Virus record (IMG/VR): IMGVR_UViG_3300042691_015481 | Span: 1-37,432 of that record | Strand: one strand, 5' to 3' | DNA: 37,432 nucleotides | Source: a virus | In this document: positions 20,037 to 23,267 of the stretch, in pieces | Position numbering within the stretch: position 1 is the stretch's first letter | How the letters are laid out: every line of letters begins with the position of its first letter | The notes under the pieces: model-generated | What the model was told of the DNA's origin: nothing | The model's database searches: none | The model's input: only the letters and a program-made list of their open reading frames with translations | Program-made: the position numbers and the translations under genes

Positions 20037-20206
20037 GCCAGCATCGCCTTGCGCTCGCGCTCCATCCGCACCGTGCAGTAGCGCTGGTGCAGGCGCAGCA
20101 TAATGGTCAGGCGCCGAGCCCCGGCGCACTCCTCATCCAGCATCTGCTTCACTTCGTCTTCGGTCATCGTTGGCAAGTTCGCCAACAGTTCGCGCCACGT
20201 CATCAT
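20033..20206 (-). CDS. Small helical protein, unknown
   Basis: This 57-aa frame begins MMTWRELLANLPTMTEDEVKQML and has GGAGG upstream (AGGAGGCACTTAA then ATG), although that site lies inside the helicase gene. The ATG overlaps the helicase stop (ATGA), and its own stop overlaps the DUF3310 start. It is a charged helix with Arg/Glu-rich ends (LHQRYCTVRMERERKAMLA). Similar short proteins with TWRELL and LHQRYxxVR accompany helicase and DUF3310 genes in other phages. Function unknown. Both overlaps support it as a true cistron. Confidence 0.75.
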   Translation of the reverse strand: MMTWRELLANLPTMTEDEVKQMLDEECAGARRLTIMLRLHQRYCTVRMERERKAMLA

Positions 20207-21501
20207 TTAAGTGCCTCCTGGGCAATGTCCGACACGCTGCGCTTATCGGCTAGCGCAGCCCAAATTTTCTCGTCTATCGTCTGCTCGGCCATAAAGACGT
20301 AGCACCATACCGCGTGCTTTTGCCCGCTGCGGTGCAGCCGTCCGATGGTCTGCTCATAGAGTTCCAGCGACCAAGGCAGCGACAGAAAAACCATCTTGCA
20401 CCCGCCATGCTGCAAGTTAAGGCCATGTCCGGCTGACCGGGGGTGCAGCAGGAGGATTTCGACTTTACCAGCGTTCCAGCGCTCGATAGCACGGTCATCC
20501 TCCAGCGTGACGGCGCGGGCGCCGTAGCGGGCCTTAAGGGTGGCGAGTTCAGCCTGATAGTTGTAAACGATTATTGTATTCGCATACTGATTTTCTTCAA
20601 GCAACTCGTCCAGCCGCACCAGCTTGTGGTTGCTGAACCACTCGGTGCCGGTGTCGCCGTAGACGAACCCCGACGCCATCTGTTGCAGCTTGCCGGTCAC
20701 GGTCGCGGCGTTAATCGCCAGCGCCCGACTGTCGGGGAAGATGGCAACAAAGTTCTTCTTCATTGCGTCGTAGGGCGCGCGGTCGAACAGCTGAGTGACG
20801 ACCGGGACCGTGTGCAGCGGCGGCAGTGTGTCGCTGTAGTCGCCGGGGTCAAGCAGGAAGGTAGCCGGCTTGATGCGGGCCATGACCATCTCAAGCGACC
20901 CCGGCACCGGCGTCCACTCCTGATGTTCGCGGTTGACGCAGTAGAAGTACTGCTGAAGGAACGCGCCCTTGGACCGGCCCAGCAGGTTCTTATCGACTAT
21001 CTTGCACTGGCCGAACACGTCTTCCAGCCCGTTAGACGTGAATGAGCCAGTCAAGCCCCAGCGTATCTTCATCGGCTCGATGACCTTCTCCAGCGCCTTG
21101 AACCTGGCGCCTGATGGGTTCTTGAGCCGGGTGAGTTCGTCGAACACGATGGCGTCGAAATTCAACCGCTGCGCGGCCAGCCACTGTAAGTTGTCGTAGT
21201 TCGTCACGACCACCTGAGCGCTTGACGCCAGCGCCGCCAGTCGCTCACCGGGTGAGCCTATGGCCACCGCCAGCGTCAGGCCGGGCGCCCACTTAGGTGC
21301 CTCGACCGGCCAAACGTCGGTGACGACGCGCTTAGGGGCCAGCACCAGCACCCGGCGCGCGGCGCCGGTGGCTAGGGCGTGTTGGATGGCGGTGAGCGTA
21401 ACCATAGTTTTCCCTGCACCGACCGGCGCTAAAATCAAGCCGCGCGGCGTGTTGAGCAGGAATTGAGCGGCTGCTAATTGATATGGGCGTGGCTTAAGCA
21501 T
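20203..21501 (-). CDS. SNF2/DEAD-type helicase
   Basis: This 432-aa superfamily 2 helicase starts at ATG 21501 (MLKPRPYQLAAAQFLLNTPRG) with GGAG eight bases upstream. Walker A is LAPVGAGKT (K31), Walker B is VFDELTRLKN, and motif VI is QTIGRLHRSGQKHAVWCY, the SNF2-type ending. It should couple ATP hydrolysis to DNA translocation or unwinding during replication or recombination. An ATG at 21561 lies inside the HNH gene and is not preferred. Its first 26 residues have a diverged copy at the start of the neighbouring HNH protein. It overlaps its neighbours by eight and four bases. Confidence 0.93.
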   Translation of the reverse strand: MLKPRPYQLAAAQFLLNTPRGLILAPVGAGKTMVTLTAIQHALATGAARRVLVLAPKRVVTDVWPVEAPKWAPGLTLAVAIGSPGERLAALASSAQVVVTNYDNLQWLAAQRLNFDAIVFDELTRLKNPSGARFKALEKVIEPMKIRWGLTGSFTSNGLEDVFGQCKIVDKNLLGRSKGAFLQQYFYCVNREHQEWTPVPGSLEMVMARIKPATFLLDPGDYSDTLPPLHTVPVVTQLFDRAPYDAMKKNFVAIFPDSRALAINAATVTGKLQQMASGFVYGDTGTEWFSNHKLVRLDELLEENQYANTIIVYNYQAELATLKARYGARAVTLEDDRAIERWNAGKVEILLLHPRSAGHGLNLQHGGCKMVFLSLPWSLELYEQTIGRLHRSGQKHAVWCYVFMAEQTIDEKIWAALADKRSVSDIAQEALK

Positions 21502-22057
21502 GGCGGGCGAACTCTCCAAATGTGTCGGCGCGCGCCTGCGCGGCAACCGCCGAAGCTTCATCTAGGGTGGCGAAACAACCGAAGGAAACTTGCTTTCCTG
21601 CAATGGACAGACGCACCTGCCAGCGGCGCACTTGCTTGTGCCAGTAGACGTTCTTGACGCCGCTCGTGTTGTCCTTGCGCGTTTTGGCGTTCCGCATGTT
21701 TTGCAAATGCGTGGCTGGGCGCAAGTTCGCAACCAAATTGTTGCCGGGGTTGCCGTCTATGTGATCGACAAACTTTGGCAGCCACCCATGCACCAGCAAG
21801 AACACGACCCGATGAACCGCGTAATGTTTCCGCCGCAAAGTGACGAACTGATACCCGTGCGGGTCTGGTGCCGGGGCAACCTCATCGCCGGGGTGTCTAA
21901 CTGACGTGCCGCGCCCAGCCTTTATCCGCCAGTACAGCTTGCCCTCGCGGTACTCCCATACGCTGGGCACGATGGCCCATTCAGGGGCTAGGACCATGCT
22001 GCGCGGCGTGTTGAGCAGGAAGGCGGCGCCTGCGGTCTGGTAGGGTCTTAGTTGCAT
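21494..22057 (-). CDS. HNH endonuclease with AP2 domain and helicase-like N-terminus
   Basis: This 187-aa protein has three parts. Residues 1-26 (MQLRPYQTAGAAFLLNTPRS) copy the start of the helicase that follows. Residues about 30-115 are an HNH nuclease: VWEYREGKLYWRI, then AVHRVVFLLVHGWLP and VDHIDGNPGNNLVANLR, where the His and Asn residues form the metal-binding site. Residues about 130-187 are an AP2-type DNA-binding domain (SGVKNVYWHKQVRRWQVRL, FATLDEASAVAAQ). HNH-AP2 proteins are usually free-standing homing endonucleases. It overlaps the methyltransferase stop by 10 bases and the helicase start by eight. The Walker A motif of the copied segment is absent, so the N-terminus is not a helicase. 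Confidence 0.92.
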   Translation of the reverse strand: MQLRPYQTAGAAFLLNTPRSMVLAPEWAIVPSVWEYREGKLYWRIKAGRGTSVRHPGDEVAPAPDPHGYQFVTLRRKHYAVHRVVFLLVHGWLPKFVDHIDGNPGNNLVANLRPATHLQNMRNAKTRKDNTSGVKNVYWHKQVRRWQVRLSIAGKQVSFGCFATLDEASAVAAQARADTFGEFARHA

Positions 22058-23016
22058 GATAGATACGCCTCTATGAGCGCTTGCGCGACTTGCGGGACGA
22101 TGGCGTTGCCGTAGGCGCGCAGGCGTCCCACTCTGGCGGTAGACCCATGAGCCAACGGGAATGTGCCGGGTTCAACTGGCCGGGCTTTTCCGTCTCGGCA
22201 GGGGAGCCAATCACAGTCGGCCCAAAAGTTAGCTGCGCCGTCACGTCCAGCGTGTCCGTGCTGATTTTCCCGTCTCTCATGCGCCCCCCCAGATACCCAC
22301 CCTTGTGGTCGCGTGTCGATGTCGTTGGCCAACCCGACAAAAACTGATTCATGTCCCGCCCCAAGCATTTCTGGTTTGAATCCACATGTGTTCTTGCTCC
22401 CTCCACATTGTCTGATGCTTGCGGTGTGGCCCAACTCGCCAGCGTCGCCTGCGTGTTCAACCCCCCGCTGCGTGTCCCATCCAACTCGCGAATCCCATTC
22501 CCGTCGCTTGTTGTTGTTGTTAGCCACGAACCACAATCGTTGTCTGATGTGCGGGGCGCCGACGCCCGCAGCAGGCATACCGACCGCCCCGCAGGCGTAG
22601 TCTTCACTTTCCAAGTCAGCTTGAACAAGGTCGAGCCAGCCGTGGTTAACTGCTGCTTCAACCTGCTCTCCAAAGATGACTGCAGGGCGGCGCTGGCGGA
22701 TGAGATTGAACCAGTCGGGCCAGAGGTGGCGTTCATCGGCGGTGCCGAGTCGGGCGCCGGCGCTAGAGAAAGGCTGGCAAGGGCAACTACCTGTCCAAAC
22801 AGGTCGGTCATCGGGCCATCCGGCGAGTCTGAGGGCGTGACTCCAGACGCCGATTCCGGCGAAAAAGTGACATTGAACAAATCCGCTAAGGTCTTCTGGT
22901 GCGACATCTTTAATGCTCCGTTCGTCCACAACGCCTGGCGCTATATGGCCGGCGGCGATTAAGTTCCTAAGCCACTGCGCGGCGAAGGGGTCTATTTCGT
23001 TGTAGTAAGCAGCCAC
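22048..23016 (-). CDS. DNA cytosine-5 methyltransferase
   Basis: I start at GTG 23016, giving 322 aa beginning MAAYYNEIDPFAAQWLRNLIAAGHIAPG, the usual start of phage C5 methyltransferases; AAGGAGG lies 10 bases upstream. An ATG at 23139 would overlap the nuclease gene by 148 bases. Motif I is FFAGIGVWSHALRLAGW (AdoMet binding). Motif IV is SCPCQPFSSAG with catalytic C80. The ENV motif appears as GEQVEAAV. QRLWFVA is motif VIII, and YGNAIVPQVAQALIEAYL is motif X. It should methylate C5 of cytosine in a sequence I cannot predict, probably protecting phage DNA. A 278-aa ORF lies inside it in another frame. Confidence 0.93.
   Translation of the reverse strand: MAAYYNEIDPFAAQWLRNLIAAGHIAPGVVDERSIKDVAPEDLSGFVQCHFFAGIGVWSHALRLAGWPDDRPVWTGSCPCQPFSSAGARLGTADERHLWPDWFNLIRQRRPAVIFGEQVEAAVNHGWLDLVQADLESEDYACGAVGMPAAGVGAPHIRQRLWFVANNNNKRREWDSRVGWDTQRGVEHAGDAGELGHTASIRQCGGSKNTCGFKPEMLGAGHESVFVGLANDIDTRPQGWVSGGAHERRENQHGHAGRDGAANFWADCDWLPCRDGKARPVEPGTFPLAHGSTARVGRLRAYGNAIVPQVAQALIEAYLSCN
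22071..22907 (-). CDS. Overlapping-frame gene inside the methyltransferase
   Basis: This 278-aa frame lies wholly inside the methyltransferase gene, on the same strand in a different frame. It starts at ATG 22907 with GGAG eight bases upstream; a longer version from TTG 22931 is also open. The product begins MSHQKTLADLFNVTFSPESAS, has AALQSSLESRLKQQLTTAGSTLFKLTWKVK, repeated WxTPQ/TT-type segments, and ends LNPAHSRWLMGLPPEWDACAPT then SSRKSRKRS. I recognise this pattern (SRLKQRL...GSTLFKLTWK...LNPAHSRWLMG) from many phage proteins deposited as unknowns. That argues it is a conserved, translated gene, not a shadow. Function unknown; low-complexity Ser/Thr-rich middle. Confidence 0.6.
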   Translation of the reverse strand: MSHQKTLADLFNVTFSPESASGVTPSDSPDGPMTDLFGQVVALASLSLAPAPDSAPPMNATSGPTGSISSASAALQSSLESRLKQQLTTAGSTLFKLTWKVKTTPAGRSVCLLRASAPRTSDNDCGSWLTTTTSDGNGIRELDGTRSGGLNTQATLASWATPQASDNVEGARTHVDSNQKCLGRDMNQFLSGWPTTSTRDHKGGYLGGRMRDGKISTDTLDVTAQLTFGPTVIGSPAETEKPGQLNPAHSRWLMGLPPEWDACAPTATPSSRKSRKRS

Positions 23017-23267
23017 TGGTCCACATCCTCCTTCGTCCACAGGACGACGTAGTTTTGCCCCAAGCGCAGCATGTCTTCGCGAAACACCTTCTGGAGTTCC
23101 GACAGCCGGCCACCGGTTGTTTTGAGTTCCACGAACCACGTCTGACCGGGCAGACAGACTACCCGGTCGGCGACGCCGCGGTGGGCGACGCTGGCGAACT
23201 TATACGCCATGCCGCCCTGCGCCTTGACTCGCTGGACCAAGTACCGCTCGATGACTTTCTCAAGCAC
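22992..23267 (-). CDS. VRR-NUC domain nuclease
   Basis: This 91-aa protein starts at GTG 23267 (LEKVIERYLVQRVKAQGG) and is a stand-alone VRR-NUC domain. That is a compact PD-(D/E)XK nuclease fold, which in phages probably resolves branched DNA or trims ends. The core is VAHRGVADRVVCLPGQTWFVELKTTGGRLSELQ: the Asp of GVADRVV, the Glu and Lys of VELK, and the following Gln form the active site. Family members often act as nicking or junction-resolving enzymes. It overlaps the 50-aa gene by eight bases upstream and the methyltransferase start by 25 bases downstream. Confidence 0.92.
   Translation of the reverse strand: MLEKVIERYLVQRVKAQGGMAYKFASVAHRGVADRVVCLPGQTWFVELKTTGGRLSELQKVFREDMLRLGQNYVVLWTKEDVDQWLLTTTK

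Follow-up and report, generated by a model that had tools for sequence, protein, structure and literature searches.

The two frames of a nested phage gene pair most probably encode the two subunits of a single, heterodimeric cytosine-5 DNA methyltransferase (MTase), with the inner frame providing target recognition and motif IX. The pair lies in the window, the whole stretch of 37,432 nucleotides that we analysed, which is a phage record carrying a portal, a major head protein, a DNA polymerase, and a terminase; all the features placed below are on its minus strand. The outer frame is listed as a C5-cytosine MTase ORF at 23139..22048. The GTG at 23016 is its likely start, which gives a product of 322 aa beginning with MAAYYNEIDP (22048..23016), the proposed alpha subunit. 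This product matches Pfam PF00145 (5.9e-17) and PHROG_363 (2e-82) and has the fold and the motifs of C5-cytosine DNA methyltransferases: motif I (FFAGIG, 22849..22866 in the alignment, the position being computed from the reference numbering), motif IV (PCQ, invariant in the MTase alignments alongside other motif residues), motif VI, and motif VIII (GAPHIRQR, 22537..22560, from the alignment). Motif X (LRAYGNAIV) was placed by alignment and pattern search at 22096..22122. We modelled the MTase with AF2 from the YYNE motif onward (319 residues, 94 sequences). The catalytic part folds very well, and the model matches M.HhaI with a Z of 15.1 and an rmsd of 2.3 over 164 aligned residues; the region after motif VIII (residues 179-255, 22243..22473) is predicted to be disordered (block pLDDT about 31-51). 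A motif II-like segment, YYNEIDPFAAQWL, precedes motif I within residues 1-47 of the MTase (window 22867-23007). The order of the enzyme thus seems to be rearranged, with this segment ahead of motif I: the structural match pairs residue 1 of the model with residue 37 of M.HhaI, and short profile alignments are consistent with the rearrangement, but weak.

The inner frame had been singled out in a sequence-only reading of the window as a 278-codon frame lying wholly within the MTase on the same strand, with its own ATG and GGAG site, and its coordinates, strand, and length all check out. This gene, the proposed beta subunit, occupies 22071..22907 in the +1 frame relative to the outer MTase frame, starts at the ATG at 22907, and encodes 278 aa. 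Its Shine-Dalgarno-like GGAG (22916..22919, 8 nt ahead of the ATG) is formed by the Arg-Ser codons of the DERSI motif of the MTase. The matches in other phages that the same reading had named do exist: tblastn gave 200 phage records, and residues 4-268 match PHROG_1008 ('DNA methyltransferase') at 7e-36, which places the protein in this family, whose profile is matched by 46 of 46 aligned members. Searches of Pfam, NCBIfam, and PDB sequences with the inner protein or its alignment returned no domain. The family (PHROG_1008 / 'Mte8-like') is already annotated. Both ORFs are annotated in K1ind2 (Kagunavirus) and in Xanthomonas phage PhiXhv-18; the other phages that we opened usually have one of the two, either the outer ORF alone (epsilon15, SEN5) or the inner one alone (W5_chr3, Tunturi_1, JC01, PMG1), and SAP012 has neither. 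A single larger methyltransferase ORF is annotated in eiDWF and eiMSLS (PMC3025963). In phage eiAU (locus L005, 2507-3925), the inner frame has no stop and continues in frame into the adenine-methylase gene downstream, forming a 472-aa ORF. We found no published account of the overlap or of a subunit role in the open-access literature, and a Klebsiella phage proteomics paper did not resolve the inner protein.

Just downstream of the MTase lies an HNH endonuclease ORF (21494-22057), followed by a SNF2-type helicase (20203-21561). The start of the HNH ORF (MQLRPYQTAGAAFLLNTPRSMVLAP) is similar to that of the helicase (KPRPYQLAAAQFLLNTPRGLILAP). From this similarity, it looks like a homing HNH gene was inserted at the start of the helicase and the start was duplicated.

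The conserved motifs are divided between the two chains. By pattern search alone, the motif-IX pattern occurs in 258 of 289 inner proteins and in none of the 289 MTase frames; motif X is found in 270 of these MTase frames and in 6 inner proteins. The outer MTase keeps motifs I-VIII and X, and motif IX is not in the same chain. We have therefore filed it as one chain of a two-chain C5-MTase rather than as a complete single-chain enzyme. In the inner protein of the window, pattern search finds a motif-IX-like segment (GQLNPAHSRWLMGLPPEWDAC) at 22119..22181. The motif IX of M.HhaI is LHPRECARVMGYPDSY, and the inner segment LNPAHSRWLMGLPPEW, spanned by helices at 247-263 in the AF2 model, has the C5-MTase motif IX form. 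This model was built from 96 sequences and is poor overall (pLDDT 60, pTM 0.30), with a predicted helix plus beta-hairpin at residues 70-116 (22560..22700) that reaches a pLDDT of about 80-90. Given to Foldseek, the low-confidence model (pLDDT 60) had no confident match in the PDB and four strong viral matches; those that carry a name come from phages, the eiDWF 'Methyltransferase' for one.

Between the core and motif IX, each inner protein has from one to nine W-x-TP-like repeats. In the window, the alignment shows three W-x-T modules at residues 127-222 (SWLTTTT.., SWATPQA.., and GWPTTST..; 22242..22529). Cutting the proteins at the repeats yields 677 modules with a median length of 36 residues, arranged in 216 distinct orders in 260 loci, and a given module recurs at different positions among loci, i.e., there is modular shuffling. 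The phages that share modules have catalytic halves nearly as different as those of random pairs (identity 0.71-0.79 vs 0.67).

Relatives that carry all of these parts in a single frame are found in actinophages. We reached them with a query that we composed in their style and used as a lead only, and which led to the MTases of mycobacterium and Gordonia phages. In mcgavigan, Akhila, and Sedona, one frame contains motifs I-VIII, then LPTP repeats, then the segment EWMMGWPAGW (EWMMMLPAGH in Sedona), and then motif X. The profile of the inner protein matches these MTases by hhalign (probability 96%, E 4.9e-9) at template positions 265-416, so that the inner-type segment lies between motifs VIII and X of the single-chain relative. 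The outer MTase profile matches their first part (97.9%), and the C-terminus of the MTase matches their motif X part (P 0.0018). Ten column-shuffled controls of the inner profile match reached at most 1%, and the inner and outer profiles do not match each other. The inner-profile match drops to 84% under other alignment settings and rests partly on short repeats, which somewhat weakens it. When the PDB was searched with the IX-X portion of the actinophage MTases, only chance matches came back. The order of the parts in one frame, together with the profile matches, therefore identifies the inner-type segment as the VIII-to-X part of a normal MTase, in which the target-recognition domain and motif IX have their place.

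These results bear on whether the inner protein is part of the MTase at all. It could be a real but separate protein, e.g., a regulator, an inhibitor, or a counter-defence protein, merely nested in the MTase gene; we judge this unlikely. The inner protein carries the motif IX that is missing from its MTase and matches the VIII-to-X segment of single-chain MTases, and among the loci examined we found no inner gene without MTase-frame sequence over it. In favour of separateness, the frame of eiAU runs on into another methylase gene, a poor model with no confident PDB match says little about the fold, and purifying selection alone shows only that the inner protein matters. The sequence-only reading had proposed that the inner protein acts with or against the MTase. 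We retain the former, since by homology the protein looks like a subunit that gives target recognition and motif IX, and drop the latter.

A second question is how the inner chain is started. Classed by a motif rule, 33 of 66 actinophage loci are single-frame and 6 are split, the rest being unclassified. In the split genes (such as Ovechkin L358 and L387), one ORF ends after motifs I-VIII, and a second, overlapping it in the +1 frame, contains the modules and motif X besides an N-terminal piece, and in most cases motif IX as well. All 33 single-frame loci have, across the motif VIII region, a short +1 ORF in which an SGMTRNG-type segment is conserved (e.g., L357, 1704-2102). Actinophage genes alternate between one-frame and split forms at this point, and overlapping ORFs can signal frameshifting in phages (PMC3025963), as would be expected if translation passed by programmed frameshift from the MTase frame to the inner one, with or without a later return, to give one fused chain. 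We nevertheless hold this to be very improbable because the inner gene has its own start: an ATG that is open up to the FAGIG motif is present in the expected interval in 277 of 283 loci (146 expected), it is accompanied by a Shine-Dalgarno-like site in 167 (32 expected), and selection on the +1 frame begins at this ATG.

Taken from the window alone, the open inner frame is unremarkable: when the codons of the MTase are shuffled synonymously, the +1 frame stays open in 13.5% of the trials. What sets it apart from chance is its openness across the family. We fetched about 340 loci, some with inner-protein queries and some, to avoid bias, with MTase queries only. Both ORFs are near full length in 331 of the 347 fetched loci, and the phase is +1 in every locus with both matches. 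Among the 85 distinct loci obtained by MTase queries, the fixed stretch is open in 60 (1.1 expected). All but two of the remaining stops either precede an alternative ATG (at -32) or fall within the final codons, which leaves true internal stops only in L185 and L259. Hence, 83 of the 85 loci keep the inner frame open from its start to near its end, where about 1 would be expected. The frame is thus clearly not broken in most relatives, and the same-strand inner gene that had looked conserved from the letters of the window alone turns out to be widely so.

A record near-identical to the window in this region (IMGVR_UViG_3300032093_010480, position 2735 of locus L006) has one extra base that breaks both frames and is either a sequencing error or a real mutation. 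The prophage of E. coli Ec1117 (L423, 3863-5032) has a disrupted copy, in which two incomplete pseudogene pieces stand for the MTase in the annotation, next to a frameshifted MT-A70 methylase. PMG1 was considered as a case of a broken MTase with an intact inner gene and then dropped: what breaks its MTase is a shift close to the start, and phage 5399, a relative, is intact. Vequintavirus CarlMeissner (L348), Seunavirus NINP13076 (L349), and E. phage 6947 (L352) have MTases that diverge strongly and whose variable region is short and of another kind. Even so, these three retain an open +1 partner with a WLMG/QLMG segment at its end, and the overlap is therefore probably old.

We analysed selection in 92 independent pairs, classing each change by what it does in either frame. 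Purifying selection acts on the inner frame, whose overall dNN/dNS is 0.55 (95% interval 0.50-0.60). The +2 control frame has a value of 1.25 overall and 1.1-1.5 in every region, and in the stretch before the inner start, the inner omega is 0.92-1.01 (overall and by-region counts). Within the gene, it is 0.60 in the N-terminal part, 0.47 in the core, 0.51 in the variable part, and 0.32 at the C-terminus. After motif VIII, the MTase frame, which is predicted to be disordered there, is nearly neutral (dNN/dSN 0.79), whereas the inner frame is constrained (0.51), and most change in the variable region falls on first positions of the MTase frame, i.e., third positions of the inner one. The inner frame is in charge after motif VIII: it prevails in the variable half, as the MTase frame does in the catalytic half. 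With few sites in the dSS class, the dSN/dSS values are rough. Protein identity in the inner frame follows the same course. It is in slight excess over synonymous shuffles before the inner start (0.359 vs 0.329) and far above them from the inner start up to motif VIII (0.484 vs 0.306) and at the C-terminus (0.585 vs 0.307). The strong mutual constraint that the sequence-only reading anticipated is thus present, but it is uneven, being imposed by the MTase on one half and by the inner protein on the other. That the inner protein is not made, its similarity being the shadow of MTase conservation in GC-rich DNA, has next to no probability: the window's frame does survive 13.5% of the synonymous shuffles, but the frame is open in 83 of 85 loci against about 1 expected, its identity exceeds that of the shuffles, the selection is specific to it and absent from the +2 frame, and in the variable region it is more constrained than the MTase frame.

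Given the frame, its conservation, the selection acting on it, and the distribution of the motifs between the chains, homology suggests a recognition role for the inner protein and the assembly of the two chains into a single enzyme. The alpha chain, from the outer frame, would contribute the SAM-binding and catalytic motifs I-VIII, with motif X at its end. The beta chain, from the inner +1 frame, would be translated from the common mRNA independently of alpha, with an ATG and a Shine-Dalgarno site of its own, and would consist of the helix-hairpin core, the W-x-TP module array as the target-recognition domain, and motif IX. It would dock on alpha where a single-chain enzyme has its target-recognition domain and motif IX, and would supply the sequence specificity; shuffling of the modules would then change the DNA target. 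More tentatively, and with somewhat less than even confidence, we suggest that catalysis and specificity have been placed in two frames such that specificity evolves as inner modules of ~36 residues are shuffled, the outer sequence over them being near-neutral filler, and that frame changes switch the enzyme between one-chain and two-chain forms. On this reading, the module array could let one MTase recognise several sequences.

If the two-chain reading is true, it would assign a testable function to a large family of phage proteins whose present labels are 'DNA methyltransferase' or 'hypothetical' only. It would also mean that the annotation of many phage C5-MTases lacks half of the enzyme, so that work on the annotated gene by itself, be it cloning, recoding, or classification, could mislead. 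Long nested same-strand gene pairs of phages with both frames under selection are seldom documented. With several hundred loci in phages and prophages, and with single-frame relatives for comparison, this pair is well suited to studies of the origin and upkeep of overlapping genes.

Several known systems resemble the pair in part. The PHROG_1008 / 'Mte8-like' proteins of Kagunavirus (e.g., K1ind2) belong to the same family and have an equal nested position; they are named 'DNA methyltransferase' or 'Mte8-like' only, and the papers that we found on them discuss neither role nor overlap. The ShiLan element is a hidden out-of-frame HNH gene in a mycobacteriophage methylase (PMC11855218). It is likewise a gene concealed in another frame of a phage methylase, but it is a homing endonuclease insertion and not an MTase subunit. 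The single-chain actinophage C5-MTases (mcgavigan, Akhila, Sedona) also place, between motifs VIII and X, a module array and a motif-IX segment of this kind; they differ in having everything in one frame and one chain. In M.AquI, as PMC3404938 describes it, one chain has the catalytic motifs I-VIII, and motifs IX-X are in the other, together with the distal variable region. This arrangement resembles that of the split actinophage genes (Ovechkin). In the window, by contrast, motif X is kept in the catalytic chain, and the second gene lies inside the first. The small chain of M.EcoHK31I is encoded in another frame inside the large-chain gene. This two-chain C5-MTase, specific for YGGCCR (Lee, Kam and Shaw 1995, cited in PMC3404938) and described as naturally split (PMC3439449), is divided, according to PMC3404938, into a large chain that has motifs I-VIII and X and a small chain that has motif IX. 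Our search of plasmids and E. coli genomes for a restriction-modification locus of this type identified none adjoining a restriction enzyme, and the E. coli loci that we opened were prophage-like. We liken the window's pair to M.EcoHK31I by the described motifs and not by sequence: the division of I-VIII and X from IX is the same. The predicted target-recognition domain of M.EcoHK31I is placed in the large chain in that account (PMC3404938), whereas in the window's family it appears to be in the inner chain, an assignment that we make, contrary to the M.EcoHK31I placement, because of the selection and structure data.
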